47,258 nucleotides of DNA, taken from Clostridia bacterium (lineage in GTDB: Bacteria; Bacillota; Clostridia; Christensenellales; Aristaeellaceae). Within the stretch, counting starts at the first letter, position 1; every line of letters begins with the position of its first letter. Location of the stretch: the NCBI GenBank assembly GCA_017434775.1, contig JAFSGG010000030.1, forward strand, positions 1 to 47,258, in the 5' to 3' direction. Made by a program: the position numbers and the translations under genes. Positions 11,226-32,154 of this stretch are shown piece by piece. The notes beneath the pieces are model-generated. The model made no database searches, was not told where the DNA came from, and worked only from the letters and a program-made list of their open reading frames with translations.

Positions 11226-11256
11226 TTGACACTTACGTTCCGTCAGGGTGTACACT
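11226..11256 (+). promoter_or_regulatory. MerR-type promoter with 19-bp spacer
   Basis: TTGACA (11226-11231), 19-base spacer, TACACT (11251-11256). The over-long spacer is the hallmark of promoters twisted into activity by MerR-family proteins, and the spacer has a partial dyad around TTACGTTCCGTCAGG. It fires into the MerR gene itself, so autoactivation is likely. Confidence 0.7.
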
Positions 11257-11277
11257 GCGTACTGTGAGGTGAGGAAC

Positions 11278-12006
11278 ATGAGGATGCAGATCAAGGAATT
11301 TGCAGATTTCACGGGGGTCAGTGTACGTACGCTGCATTATTACGATGAGATCGGGCTGATGAAACCGGCTTGGGTGGATCCAATTACCGGGTATCGGTAT
11401 TATGACGAACAATCCCTCCTTCGGATGCAGGAGATTTTGTTTTACCGGGAACTGGATTTTTCTCTGAAAAGCATCGGCGATATGTTATCTTCCCCGGATT
11501 ATGACAGGCAAAGAGCGCTGGAGGATCAGAAAAAGCTGCTGACCTTGAAAAAGGAACGGCTGGAGCGGCTGATTCTGGCCATTGACGGCGCCGCGAAAGG
11601 AGAGAATGTGATGACCGCTTTTGACAAGCATGCCTTTGAAAAATACAAGGAAGAAGCCAAAGAAAAATGGGGTCAGACCGCTGCTTATCAAGAGCATGCG
11701 GAAAAGACCCGGAACTATACCAATCAGACATGGGGCGAGCTGGCAGAGAGGCTGGATCGGATCATGGCGGAGTTTGCCCTGTGTATGAAGCGCGGCGAAA
11801 CGCCGGATTCTTCGGAAGCACAACAGCTGGTGAAAACGCTTCAGAGCCACATTACGGATAACTATTACACCTGCAATGATCAGATCCTGCTGGGCCTTGG
11901 ACAGATGTATGTGGGGGATGAGCGTTTCCGGCAGAATATTGACAGGCATGGAGATGGCACGGCGCGGTTCATCTGTGATGCTGTTGAGGTATATTGCAAA
12001 AAGTAA
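11278..12006 (+). CDS. MerR-family regulator with TipAS-type ligand domain
   Basis: A 242-residue regulator. The N-terminal MerR helix-turn-helix is clear (IKEFADFTGVSVRTLHYYDE, then GLMKPAWVDPITGYRYYDEQ), followed by a dimerisation helix to about residue 110. The C-terminal 130 residues (EEAKEKWGQTAAYQEHAEKT, YTCNDQILLGLGQMYVGDER) match the TipAS fold that binds thiopeptide and other drugs in TipA and Mta/SkgA-like regulators. ATG 11278 is chosen because GAGGTGAGG precedes it; the longer frame would start inside the promoter. Target genes beyond itself are not evident. Confidence 0.92.
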   Translation: MRMQIKEFADFTGVSVRTLHYYDEIGLMKPAWVDPITGYRYYDEQSLLRMQEILFYRELDFSLKSIGDMLSSPDYDRQRALEDQKKLLTLKKERLERLILAIDGAAKGENVMTAFDKHAFEKYKEEAKEKWGQTAAYQEHAEKTRNYTNQTWGELAERLDRIMAEFALCMKRGETPDSSEAQQLVKTLQSHITDNYYTCNDQILLGLGQMYVGDERFRQNIDRHGDGTARFICDAVEVYCKK

Positions 12007-13115: not shown

Positions 13116-13871
13116 GTGGAGTTTGCGAAAAAACGATACATCGGGGATGTGATCATGGCTGGCGAGCCGGAGAAAGGGTCTTATCTGAATAACATTCCCA
13201 CGGTGAAGCATTTGAAAAAGATGAAGCATTTGCCCCTGCATGCCCCGGTCACGTTTCTGGTGGGGGAAAATGGAACCGGTAAATCCACGCTGCTGGAGGC
13301 CATTGCCGTGGCGGCCGGGTTTAACCCGGAGGGTGGAACGAAAAATTTTTCTTTCACCACCCGAGCCACCCATTCTTCCTTGCATGAATGCATCCGGCTG
13401 GCCCGATACGGCTTTCCCAGGGACGGCTTTTTTCTGCGGGCGGAAAGCTTTTATAACATGGCCACCAATATTGACGAAATGGACGAAGGCGGGGGATTGG
13501 GCGCCCCGGTGATCGAAAGCTTCGGCGGCGTATCCCTGCACGAGCAGAGCCATGGGGAAAGCTTTTTATCGGTGGTGCTGCATCGGTTCGGCGGCAACGG
13601 CCTGTACATCCTGGATGAACCGGAGGCAGCGCTTTCGCCCATGCGGCTGATGACCCTGCTTTCTGCCATGGACAAGCTGGTGAAAAACAACAGCCAGTTC
13701 ATCATCTCCACCCATTCGCCGATTTTAATGGCCTATCCCGGAGCGGAAATACTGGAACTGAGCGAAGCGGGCATCCGCAGCGTGGATTATAGAGAAACAG
13801 AGCATTATCAGGTGACAAGGCGTTTTCTGGAAAACCCGGAAAAGATGCTGCATTACCTGCTGGAGGAATGA
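13116..13871 (+). CDS. Stand-alone ABC/AAA-type ATPase
   Basis: A 251-residue protein with Walker A GENGTGKST (50-58), signature-like LHEQSHGESFLS, Walker B LYILDEPEAALSP and the switch ISTHSPILM. This combination places it in the SMC/RecF-like ABC ATPases of the predicted AAA ATPase group, without membrane segments. It is not next to a permease, so a transport role is not supported; similar single ATPases are of unknown role or act with nucleases. GTG 13116 was chosen because AAAGGAGG lies nine bases upstream and earlier starts overlap the promoter. Confidence 0.85.
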   Translation: MEFAKKRYIGDVIMAGEPEKGSYLNNIPTVKHLKKMKHLPLHAPVTFLVGENGTGKSTLLEAIAVAAGFNPEGGTKNFSFTTRATHSSLHECIRLARYGFPRDGFFLRAESFYNMATNIDEMDEGGGLGAPVIESFGGVSLHEQSHGESFLSVVLHRFGGNGLYILDEPEAALSPMRLMTLLSAMDKLVKNNSQFIISTHSPILMAYPGAEILELSEAGIRSVDYRETEHYQVTRRFLENPEKMLHYLLEE

Positions 13872-13930
13872 AACAGGGTTTTGGTAAATATAAGGTTTTA
13901 TCCCGTTTGACTGCTGTATACAGAAAAAAG

Positions 13931-13962
13931 AACGGCGCTGCATTTGAAGCAACGCCGTTTTT
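13931..13962. terminator. Bidirectional terminator between convergent genes
   Basis: Arms 13931-13941 and 13949-13959 pair at 10 of 11 positions with T-rich flanks on both sides. It serves the ATPase (rightward) and the GH5 gene (leftward). Confidence 0.8.
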
Positions 13963-13990
13963 GTATGGAGTGGATTTTCAGCAATAAGAA

Positions 13991-15214
13991 TCAGTCGTAA
14001 TCCGCGTATTTCTTGGGATCGGCGTTGTATTCGCCCAGCACAATGGGCACACCGAATTTTTCGGAATACTTTTTGTAGATTTCAAAGGATTTGCGCAACA
14101 CATTGCCGTGGGTGGTTTCGTCCCAGCGGGCGGTCATTTGGGTCCAGGTGGCGGTGGTCCAGGTGAAGGCTTGAGGATCGTAATTGTGGACGGTGATCAT
14201 CAGGTGTTCCGGGTCTTCTTCCGGCAGCACAAAGGAAGCAAAATTGCCTTCCGCACCGCCGCCGGAATAGGTCATGAGGATCAGATTGCGCTTTTCGTTG
14301 TTGCCGCCTGTCTGCCGTACCGTTTCTACAAAGAGCTTATTCCAGGCATTCACCCATTTGGCAGCATCCGGGGAGGGGGTGTTCCAGTTGTTGCCGGCAT
14401 CCAGCACTTCATTCATGCTTTCAAAGAGCAGCCGTTCGTCGTAATCGGCAAAGGTTTCCGCAATCTGGGTCCAGGCGGCGGCAAAACGGGGACTGTAGGT
14501 GGTATAGGAATCTTCGGAAGCTTCAATCCAGCCATCGGCGCCGCCGTCATGGTGCATATTGATGATCACATAGATGCCCCGACTGTGGAAAAGATCCACC
14601 ACTTCCCTGACCCTTGCCAGCCAGAGGGGATCGATCCGGTTGTTTTCATCCATATGCTCTGCCCAGGTGATGGGGATGCGCACGGTGGTAAAGCCAAGGG
14701 ACAGCACATAATCGGCAAGGACTTCTGTTACAATGGGCTGGCCCCAGGCGGTTTCCCAGGCTTCCGGTAACAGACGGCCTTTGGCATCCTTTTTGCCCCA
14801 TTGAACAATCCAGCCCTTTTTACCGGCCTTGTCTTCCACGATATTATAGCTGGTGGAATCCAGCGTGTTGCCCAGATTCCAGCCGGGGCCAAAGTTGGCG
14901 GCGGCTTCAAAAGCGGTTTCTTCTTCAAACACGGCAGGATCACCGCCGTTGCCGGGCTGCCTGTCGGCCGGGTAGCAGCTCATGATGGCATCGATATAGG
15001 CCGGAAAATTTACCTTCCGTTCCTTGCGGTTCACATGGGTGGAACAATCCCACAGGATGACGGGCACGCCGTATTCCACCGAAAGGGAATTGACACAGGC
15101 GGCATAGGCGGCCATATCGGCTTCGTTGTATTCGGTGTTTTCGGCACTGCATACAGGCAGCATGCCCAGAAGGAACATGAGGACAAGAAGCAGGGAAAGC
15201 AGTTTTTTCTTCAT
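13991..15214 (-). CDS. Secreted GH5 endoglucanase-like enzyme with permuted domain order
   Basis: A 407-residue protein with signal peptide (1-24). Residues about 108-407 are a GH5 barrel: GPGWNLGNTLDS, VRIPITWAEHMD, IINMHHDGG, acid/base FESMNEV (E269), TVHNYDP, and nucleophile VPIVLGEYNA (E395). The chain stops only 12 residues after the nucleophile, so the usual last helix-strand-helix is missing at the C-terminus. Matching sequence is instead found at the N-terminus (about 34-82: AYAACVNSLSVEYGVPVILW, DCSTHVNRK, YIDAIMSCYP). The order therefore looks circularly permuted. The likely substrate is beta-glucan or cellulose. Promoter at 15272-15300. Confidence 0.88.
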   Translation of the reverse strand: MKKKLLSLLLVLMFLLGMLPVCSAENTEYNEADMAAYAACVNSLSVEYGVPVILWDCSTHVNRKERKVNFPAYIDAIMSCYPADRQPGNGGDPAVFEEETAFEAAANFGPGWNLGNTLDSTSYNIVEDKAGKKGWIVQWGKKDAKGRLLPEAWETAWGQPIVTEVLADYVLSLGFTTVRIPITWAEHMDENNRIDPLWLARVREVVDLFHSRGIYVIINMHHDGGADGWIEASEDSYTTYSPRFAAAWTQIAETFADYDERLLFESMNEVLDAGNNWNTPSPDAAKWVNAWNKLFVETVRQTGGNNEKRNLILMTYSGGGAEGNFASFVLPEEDPEHLMITVHNYDPQAFTWTTATWTQMTARWDETTHGNVLRKSFEIYKKYSEKFGVPIVLGEYNADPKKYADYD

Positions 15215-15271
15215 GACAAGGAACTTCCTTTCGGGACAGAATCAGAAAAACAAGGGTTAAATATATACTGT

Positions 15272-15300
15272 AGTATAACAAAAGAGGGACCGGATGTACA
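15272..15300 (-). promoter_or_regulatory. Promoter candidate of the GH5 gene
   Basis: Read leftwards: TGTACA (15300-15295), 17 bases, TATACT (15277-15272). The -35 is weak, the -10 good. Confidence 0.5.
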
Positions 15301-15385
15301 GGGGGGAAGAAAAAGTTTTATTGGTTTGTTTTTATGAACGCAAGTGCACAATGGTATCTGTATGAAGCTTTTATTTTTGCACCGC

Positions 15386-15414
15386 TTGACCTTGGCTGCA
15401 TCCGGCGGTATAAT
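15386..15414 (+). promoter_or_regulatory. Sigma-A promoter of the M42 peptidase gene
   Basis: TTGACC (15386-15391), 17 bases, TATAAT (15409-15414). Confidence 0.85.
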
Positions 15415-15452
15415 AAACCCATATGATTTACAAGAAAAAGGAGCCTGTTTAT

Positions 15453-16493
15453 ATGAAGTTTCCGATTGATGAAAAATACCTGATTGATTGTTTCCGGGCA
15501 ATTGTGAACGTGCCCAGCCCCGTGGGCTATTACGCCCAAATGAACCCTGTGCTGGAAAAGATGGCGGCGGAATTTGGCTGCGAAGTGACGTACGATCACA
15601 AGAGCACCGCCTATATCCATCTGGAGGGGGAAGACCACAGCAAGAAAGTGCTGATTGGTGCCCATGTGGACACCATCGGCTGCGTGGTGCGCACCATTGA
15701 TAAAAACGGCTGGCTGCGGCTGCGGAATCTGGGCGGCGTGAACTACAGTACTCTGGAAGGGGAAACGGTCACCATCCACACCCGGGACGGCCGGGAATAC
15801 ACCGGCCTTGTGGCCTGCCAGAGCCACAGCGTGCATGTGTTTGACGATGCCAGAACGCTGGAACGCAACGAAAACACCATGGTGGTCATGCTGGATGAAA
15901 AAGTAAGCAGCAAAGAAGAAGTGAACCAACTGGGCATCCGCCATGGGGATTTTGTTTCCGTGGATCCCCGGTGCCAGTTCACGAAGAACGGTTATTTGAA
16001 ATCCCGGTTTATTGATGATAAGGCAGCGGTGGCCTGTGTATTTGCCATGCTGAAATACCTGAAGGAGAATAACCTGAAGCCCAAGTTTGACACGCTGTTG
16101 GCTTTCCCTTACGGGGAAGAAATCGGCTTTGGCGGAACTTATGTGCCCGAAGGCGTCAGCGAGTATGTGGCCATTGATATCGGTCTCATCGGCCCGGATT
16201 ATGACGGTAATGAATACAATGTGGCCATCTGCGCCAAGGATGCTTCCGCGCCCTATGACTGGGATCTGACCAACCGGCTGATTGCTTATGCGGAAAAAGC
16301 TGGCTGCGATTATGCGGTGGATGTGTTCTATCGCTATGGCACCGACGGTAATGCTGCCGTCCGGGCGGGCAATAACCTGCGCTCGGCTGCCTTTGGTATG
16401 CCGGTACTGTGCAGCCATGGCATGGAACGCACCCATATTTCCAGCCTGAATAACACCACCAATCTGCTGCTGGCTTATGTGCTGGATATCTGA
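15453..16493 (+). CDS. M42-family metallopeptidase (aminopeptidase)
   Basis: A 346-residue cytoplasmic dinuclear-metal peptidase. Visible ligands and catalytic residues in family order: IGAHVDTIG (His, Asp), RFIDDKAAVA (bridging Asp), FPYGEEIGFGG (catalytic Glu and ligand Glu), VAIDIGLIGPD (ligand Asp) and SHGMERTHISS (ligand His). M42 enzymes trim N-terminal residues from peptides and form large tetrahedral complexes. Start ATG 15453 follows AAAAGGAG; the upstream ATG at 15423 lacks a site. It stands alone between its own promoter and a strong terminator. Confidence 0.92.
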   Translation: MKFPIDEKYLIDCFRAIVNVPSPVGYYAQMNPVLEKMAAEFGCEVTYDHKSTAYIHLEGEDHSKKVLIGAHVDTIGCVVRTIDKNGWLRLRNLGGVNYSTLEGETVTIHTRDGREYTGLVACQSHSVHVFDDARTLERNENTMVVMLDEKVSSKEEVNQLGIRHGDFVSVDPRCQFTKNGYLKSRFIDDKAAVACVFAMLKYLKENNLKPKFDTLLAFPYGEEIGFGGTYVPEGVSEYVAIDIGLIGPDYDGNEYNVAICAKDASAPYDWDLTNRLIAYAEKAGCDYAVDVFYRYGTDGNAAVRAGNNLRSAAFGMPVLCSHGMERTHISSLNNTTNLLLAYVLDI

Positions 16494-30877: not shown

Positions 30878-31075
30878 CATTTTCACAAGCAATGGACGGA
30901 AAACAAAAAGAACGAAAAGGGGAGAGGATTCTTCGGGTCACCGGCAGGCATAGAGGCTGTGCAGCTGAAGCCGGAGATCGCATATGATGACAAAAATTGC
31001 ACGGAAATGATGGCTTTTGTCCAGAAAAACAAGGGAATGGTGACAGGAAATGATCTGATTGCGGCGAATGAATGA
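30878..31075 (+). pseudogene. Possible gene remnant upstream of the intracellular GH5 gene
   Basis: A stop-to-stop frame of 65 codons with good coding composition in its second half (GSPAGIEAVQLKPEIAYDDK ... GMVTGNDLIAANE) but no start codon with a ribosome site. It looks like the C-terminal end of a lost gene; not identified. Confidence 0.3.
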
Positions 31076-31107
31076 TGGGAAAAAACACACTGCGAGGTGC
31101 TGAAACC

Positions 31108-32154
31108 ATGGAAGTGAAAAAGACCATTCCTGCTCCCTTTGAAAAGGGCGTTAATTTTACCAACTGGCTGGAATACCGTTCTGCGGAGCAGATCAATGCG
31201 GAGATGTTTGGCTATCAGGATTTTGAAAATGCCCGGAAGATGGGGTGCGATGTGATTCGCCTGCCCATTCATTTTGAAAAGATCTGCCGGGAAGAAGAAG
31301 GCTTTGCCATTCCGCAGAAAATCTGGGGTATTCTGGATAATGTGGCCGACTGGTGCGAAAAACTGCAGATGTACATCATTCTGGATTTTCATAATGATTG
31401 CTCTGCCGATTCTGCCACGCCGCATGATGTGGACCGAATTTTGATCCCCGTCTGGCGGCAGCTGGCCGGAAGGTATAAAGAACGGTCTGAATACATTGTA
31501 TATGAGATCATGAACGAGCCCCATGCCATTCCTATTCCGTTGTGGAACGATATCATTGCCCGGGTGTTCAGGGAAATCCGGGCGATTGACAAAAAGCACT
31601 GGATCATTGTGGGCGGCGCGGATTGGAACAGCACCGAAGCCATGAAAACCCTGCCGGATTTTCACGATGATAAAGTGATCTACAATTTCCATTTCTACGA
31701 TCCCCACACCTTTACCCATCAGGGGGCGTCCTGGTGCCACATGCAGCGGGTAATGGGCTTGCCGTTCCCCTACGATGCGGAAAAAATGCCGCCCATGCCG
31801 GAAAATCCAACGGAAGTGGAAAAGCGCTGTTTTGAAAATTATCCCGTTAACGGCCAGCTTTCCAAAGTGACGGATTGCTTTGATCAGTATGCGCAGTTCA
31901 GCCGGGAGAGGAATGCGCCGGTGTTCGGCGGTGAATTCGGCTGTTTCATGACGGTGCCCAACGACCTGCGTATCAACTGGTACCGCATTGTGGCCGGCCT
32001 GCTGGCGGAAAGGGGCATTGCCCGCACCAGCTGGGATTATTACGGCGCATTCGGTGTGTTCCATCGCAAGGAACGCTTTGTGCGGCCTCAGTTCCCCCAG
32101 GATCTGAACCGGGAATTGCTGCGGGCCATGGGCCTGAATGCGGATGTGGAATAA
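31108..32154 (+). CDS. Intracellular GH5 glycoside hydrolase
   Basis: A 348-residue GH5 enzyme without a signal peptide, so it acts on imported oligosaccharides. Motifs: FEKGVNFTNWLEYR, CDVIRLPIHFEKI, MYIILDFHNDC, acid/base YEIMNEPHAIP, IYNFHFYDPHTFTHQG, nucleophile VFGGEFGCF, and a C-terminal TSWDYYGAFGVF with the conserved Trp. Unlike the permuted GH5 protein at 14 kb, the order is normal. ATG 31108 follows GCGAGGTG; upstream ATGs at 31072/31075 lack a site. The substrate is a beta-linked glucan or mannan oligomer. Confidence 0.92.
   Translation: MEVKKTIPAPFEKGVNFTNWLEYRSAEQINAEMFGYQDFENARKMGCDVIRLPIHFEKICREEEGFAIPQKIWGILDNVADWCEKLQMYIILDFHNDCSADSATPHDVDRILIPVWRQLAGRYKERSEYIVYEIMNEPHAIPIPLWNDIIARVFREIRAIDKKHWIIVGGADWNSTEAMKTLPDFHDDKVIYNFHFYDPHTFTHQGASWCHMQRVMGLPFPYDAEKMPPMPENPTEVEKRCFENYPVNGQLSKVTDCFDQYAQFSRERNAPVFGGEFGCFMTVPNDLRINWYRIVAGLLAERGIARTSWDYYGAFGVFHRKERFVRPQFPQDLNRELLRAMGLNADVE

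Follow-up and report, generated by a model that had tools for sequence, protein, structure and literature searches.

In a 47,258-nucleotide stretch of DNA from a Clostridia bacterium (the whole of which we call the window), the minus-strand gene at 13991-15214 codes for a secreted protein of 407 residues, P0001, that is very probably a natural and functional circular permutant of a GH5 (GH5_4-like) (β/α)8 endo-β-glucanase. The order of its elements, the conservation of that order in orthologues, the homology of its N-terminal segment to the tails of canonical GH5 proteins and the selection on this segment are established from sequence; closure of the barrel, activity and substrate are predicted. 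As we read it, the chain would begin with the signal peptide, continue with helix 7, strand 8 and helix 8, then with a linker of some 13 residues, and finish with helix 0, strands 1 to 7 and the C-terminus (Table 1).

Table 1. Features of the permuted GH5 gene and its protein, in window coordinates.
Feature	Position	Strand	Basis
Permuted GH5 enzyme gene, 407 aa + stop	13991..15214	-	ORF, orthologues
Signal peptide, residues 1-24 (boundary approximate)	15143..15214	-	Lys run and hydrophobic stretch seen in the sequence
Permuted segment, residues 30-82: helix 7, strand 8, helix 8	14969..15127	-	Profile matches to canonical tails, rotated alignment
Codon of W55, strand-8 tryptophan	15050..15052	-	Alignments with permutants, canonicals and 3vdh
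New linker, residues 83-95 at most, bridging old C- and N-ends	14930..14968	-	Alignments
Main part of barrel, residues 96-398: helix 0 and strand 1 to strand 7	14021..14929	-	Pfam, PDB matches
Codon of E269, acid/base, NE motif	14408..14410	-	Alignment
Codon of E395, nucleophile	14030..14032	-	Alignment
New C-terminus, residues 399-407 (DPKKYADYD), strand 7-helix 7 loop	13994..14020	-	Orthologue alignment
Terminator-like hairpin just 3' of the stop	13931..13959	-	Consensus match only

The protein ends with GEYNADPKKYADYD, 12 residues past the nucleophile E395, and this end lacks helix 7, strand 8 and helix 8. They are found instead at residues ~33-80, directly behind the signal peptide (residues 28-82: EYNEADMAAYAACVNSLSVEYGVPVILWDCSTHVNRKERKVNFPAYIDAIMSCYP), so that the strands do not follow each other from 1 to 8: helix 7, strand 8 and helix 8 come ahead of strand 1. 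The Pfam Cellulase profile (PF00150) matched only residues 153-398, from position 13 to 238 of 272 (159.5 bits against a cut-off of 23.5), and its match ended at position 238 in all four permutants scanned (P0001, L007, L012 and L113); profile annotation thus misses part of the catalytic domain. A sequence-only reading of this DNA had given the same ORF, strand and residues E269, E395 and W55, which the sequence bears out, and its view that the core stops 12 residues past E395, short of the last helix-strand-helix, agrees with the early end of the Pfam match. An NCBIfam scan returned only a weak endoglycoceramidase match (36 of 700 bits, far under its cut-off). By its residues the enzyme fits GH5 (clan GH-A) and by element order it does not: on sequence grounds it is homologous but permuted. 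Behind strand 1, at residues ~121-150, it carries a stretch 17 residues longer than in the canonical protein L114. What we take to be a lipobox-like motif is present in L007 (ITGC) and L010 (LAGC) and absent from P0001.

To identify the N-terminal segment we compared it with canonical GH5 proteins of the window's family. The search gave 132 ORFs with a match, of which 101 distinct proteins make up the canonical set and 18 entries are nine permutants; the other 13 were left out as repeats or because their core match fell short of model position 390. The canonicals are related to each other, and counts over them are not independent. An HMM of eight permutants, run on 21 canonicals, aligned its core block (to ~404) and then, behind it, its N-terminal block (~27-80) in 18 (all but L116, L118 and L131), the second block being weak, from below zero to at most 16.5 bits. 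In 80 of the 101 canonicals (median 5.2 bits, best 17.8), the best match of a profile of the segment only (residues 31-84) fell in the tail window, no more than 25 residues from where it was expected; 16 gave no match and five matched elsewhere. Twenty column-shuffled versions of this profile placed 1 to 23 canonicals in the tail window (mean 5.1), with best scores of -1.1 to 6.4 bits. With hhalign, residues 30-79 aligned on the canonical tail with a score of 185.3, against 133.3 for 100 shuffles (sd 2.6, maximum 142.2) and 131.0 for the reversed profile. The evidence here is the score and not the place, because the best shuffles fall in the tail region too; absolute hhalign probabilities were discarded, shuffles also reaching 99%. 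These profile matches sustain the earlier proposal that the segment is the missing end of the barrel.

Rotating the protein in silico, as the sequence-only reading had suggested, lengthened the alignments. The PF00150 match then covered positions 13-269 (165.0 bits, compared with 159.5 in native order), and PDB alignments were extended by at least 30 residues in 27 of 34 chains (E up to 1e-30; for example 6xsu, 316 against 283), a count without a shuffled control. Among the others, 6xso gained 11 residues, and 9bmk, 3zmr, 4v2x and the top three PDB chains (3vdh, 5d9m and 6d2w) were taken at most two residues further by the single rotated sequence; 3vdh aligned through its tail only with profile A5, made from the rotated protein and three canonical proteins. 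In the PDB search with profile A1, 6wqp had a third block of only -1.3 bits, in which NRKELKVNYPAYVDAIM faces NRGTLTWQYPELLEAMM from the end of that chain. As a single sequence the segment alone retrieved no GH5 chain from the PDB with phmmer; the signal emerges with profiles. Identity to the canonicals is lower in the tail than in the core (median 0.22 against 0.35).

The residues of the catalytic centre follow the same rotation. R179, H221, N268, E269, H343, Y345, E395 and W55, which we take to be the full list of eight conserved GH5 residues as applied to P0001, are present in all nine permutants. In an alignment of the nine with the 101 canonicals, rotated so that tails stand opposite tails by construction, all of them but H221 face the same residue in every canonical (101/101); the figures for H221, R63 and D56 are 100, 85 and 84. 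The eighth conserved residue, W55, is recovered only with the permuted segment; a passage in PMC4488959 gives six conserved active-site residues for GH5 besides the two catalytic Glu. Through profile A5, the W55 column meets Trp324 of PbGH5A (3vdh), described in a passage of PMC5816542 as the equivalent of CjGH5D Trp432, the residue stacking in the -1 subsite. The same passage names Asn28 and Trp48 of PbGH5A alongside Trp324, and these correspond to N116 and W157.

The permuted order was found in nine of the 308 genomes of the window's family, its own included, which represent nine species in five genera. The eight other permutants are 67-79% identical to P0001. A pattern scan of 84,980 species genomes gave 69 loci, seven of which (L006-L012) match from residue 25 or earlier through 407 at 69-79% identity; as the scan used exact peptide patterns of P0001, distant permutants could escape it. 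The nine family genomes are the window's, G216 (L113) and seven that can be equated with L006-L012 from their scores and ORF lengths. All nine proteins have the same segment at the start and the same end residue, to which two add one Arg, and all close with DPK.Y.DY[DE]; N30, D33, W55, D56 and R63 are invariant. In a tree of 75 of the 110 distinct cores, they group as a single clade (support 100/100) whose stem is long (1.17); the tree carries a long-branch warning and singles out no sister group for the permutants. L114 (genome G191) scored highest of all canonicals in the family search and is the only one of the 101 to match a loose pattern for the permutants' TTATWT loop, which hints at L114 as a candidate sister.

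No permutant was found outside the family with the junction profile A4 in draws of 396 genomes from the order and 391 from the class (E up to 1e-5), and a phylum draw of 398 genomes searched with profile A1 (E up to 1e-70) returned only the window's own. The peptide patterns gave no match in viral contigs, and of 12 plasmid records with partial GH5 matches none covered 80%. Two cysteines, at residues 40 and 57 (codons 15095-15097 and 15044-15046, minus strand), are invariant in the nine permutants; Cys40 lies in helix 7 and Cys57 just behind strand 8, positions that in canonicals hold mostly Tyr or Phe (40) and Asn (66/101) or Cys (15/101) (57).

We then asked how the segment evolves. Averaged over the 36 pairs of the nine genes, pN/pS was 0.305 for the segment (31-82), 0.321 for the core (109-398), 0.436 for the linker and 0.745 for the signal region, the fastest-evolving part. 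For the last nine residues it was 0.118, a rough value because synonymous change was beyond correction in 20 of 36 pairs (segment, 4/36; core, 0/36). The closest pair (L006 and L008) has a dN/dS of 0.264 in the segment and of 0.225 in the core. Purifying selection on the segment is therefore about as strict as on the core, which argues against the segment being a relic. In that alternative, also raised by the sequence-only reading, the N-terminal piece would be the decaying first domain of a GH5 tandem, the core would have lost its tail, and the protein would be inactive or work differently. Duplication with outer deletions would leave such an arrangement, and the stem of the clade is long; yet a relic accords poorly with a segment whose constraint is close to that of the core, with W55, D56 and R63 that never vary, and with the retention of all eight residues of the catalytic centre. 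We consider it highly unlikely. Circular permutation, the reading that had been put beside it, is upheld by the eight orthologues of the same order, the profile tests with shuffled controls, the eighth conserved residue and the purifying selection.

The position of the cut can be narrowed down. Counted from the strand-8 Trp, D33 has its counterpart in the Asp at the start of helix 7 in L114, which puts D33 opposite ~residue 406 or 407; the C-terminal end falls at much the same point, so the cut is at the passage from loop 7 to helix 7. The junctions had been said to match: N30 and D33 are invariant in all nine permutants, but the EYN/EYN match itself occurs in only three of nine orthologues (P0001, L006 and L008). 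As the two new ends moreover overlap by a few residues only, this echo is probably not a trace of the breakpoint. The linker, given before as 25 residues, proved to be about 13 or fewer, residues from ~93 aligning with the N-terminal helix of 3vdh (NATYMEESAQSAVDNFG); its GN.GD is conserved.

A short linker could in principle favour swapping, with the N-terminal helix-strand-helix completing a neighbouring molecule (a swapped dimer) or another GH5 protein. The old N- and C-ends of such barrels are on the same side, however, which makes closure within one chain simpler, and Gly and Asn residues are kept in the linker; we regard such an exchange as very improbable. Under circular permutation, the new ends would be placed on the active-site face, in the loop leading from strand 7 (E395) to helix 7, with the linker bridging the old ends. 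Once exported, the N-terminal segment would complete the barrel by closing on strands 1 and 7, setting W55 beneath the -1 subsite and next to E269 and E395, and the usual retaining double-displacement hydrolysis of β-1,4-glucan could then follow. More tentatively, and with considerable doubt, we suggest that the free C-terminal DPK.Y.DY[DE], which is nearly invariant, may have been recruited to line the cleft and tune substrate binding or catalysis. Such a cleft-lining free peptide, if true, would be impossible for an ordinary GH5 chain.

Seven of the nine genomes match named public MAG records from three name series (RUG, RGIG and SIG), four of which carry a sheep, goat or water buffalo gut label. 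Flanks of ~150 bases to 4 kb per side showed no gene common to the window and the others; flanking genes were shared by L006 and L008 alone. A second GH5 copy or GH5 tail was sought up to 3 kb a side, with only ~150 bases downstream in L006 and L012, where the contigs end, and none was found (best E 1.5). A hairpin of 11 pairs with a T run begins 32 bases past the stop; the region has two such sites, not above the shuffle mean of 2.6. The chance that the true gene has ordinary order, with a C-terminus lost to assembly or annotation as the sequence-only reading had allowed, is negligible, for although all nine assemblies are multi-contig and the L006 copy lies near a contig end between inverted repeats, assembly error is very unlikely because nine separate assemblies, seven matching MAG records of three series, have the same order and end, flanking genes being shared only by L006 and L008, with a terminator-like site past the stop and no GH5 tail in the flanks examined. 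The two 107-nt repeats of L006 (3820-3926 and 5267-5373) are 98% complementary, and the second sits at the contig end; they could be mobile, or no more than a dispersed repeat. In the window, the region around the permuted gene (13700-15600) contains no inverted repeats of at least 20 nt.

Circular permutants usually arise through duplication. These ones probably go back to a single event in a gut Clostridia family, a tandem duplication from which both outer parts were then lost, the breakpoint falling where helix 7 begins; the searches turned up no intermediate.

GH5 is among the largest and most studied glycosidase families. Natural permutation is known in a secreted glucanase from the GH16 β-glucanases, whose fold is a jelly roll and not a barrel, and GH70 enzymes have α-glucan chemistry. 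P0001 is taken as GH5_4-like from its PDB matches, the best of which include the GH5_4-named enzymes PbGH5A (3vdh sequence), 6wqp, 6mq4 and 3ayr, labelled so in passages of PMC5816542 and PMC10485095. GH5_4 endoglucanases (PbGH5A: 3vdh, 5d9n, 5d9p; 6wqp) have the same catalytic residues as the permutant and share its helix-0/strand-1 motif GFNLGNTLD (3vdh, E 9.4e-75 with A1), but in their ordinary order helix 7 to helix 8 are C-terminal, whereas the permutant has them N-terminal. The closest parallel in kind is GH70, whose barrel is, in a passage of PMC11046441, a permuted GH13 barrel of order N-α3-β4 ... β3-C: likewise a natural circular permutation of a glycosidase (β/α)8 barrel that starts at a helix. 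As there, a homologous segment has moved from one end to the other with all core elements kept. The GH70 cut, as given in that passage, falls after strand 3 and that of the GH5 permutants after strand 7, and GH70 is an established family whereas the GH5 permutants are one small clade. In the open-licence PMC literature we found no natural GH5 permutant described, in keeping with the sequence-only reading, which was aware of no described case. We conclude that P0001 is a permuted relative within GH5, the product of an event of the GH70 kind whose GH5 case is itself undescribed in that literature.

The nine orthologues of one origin are well suited to studying how a barrel enzyme copes with new ends beside its nucleophile. 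They also raise the questions of how folding proceeds during export when the last barrel elements of the chain emerge first, and by which evolutionary route a barrel comes to be permuted. The window holds a second GH5 gene at 31072-32154 (plus strand), of ordinary order (Pfam 27-268 of 272) and ~24% identical to the permuted GH5 over 194 residues. At 11248-12006 (plus strand) it encodes a MerR regulator with a TipAS antibiotic-recognition domain.
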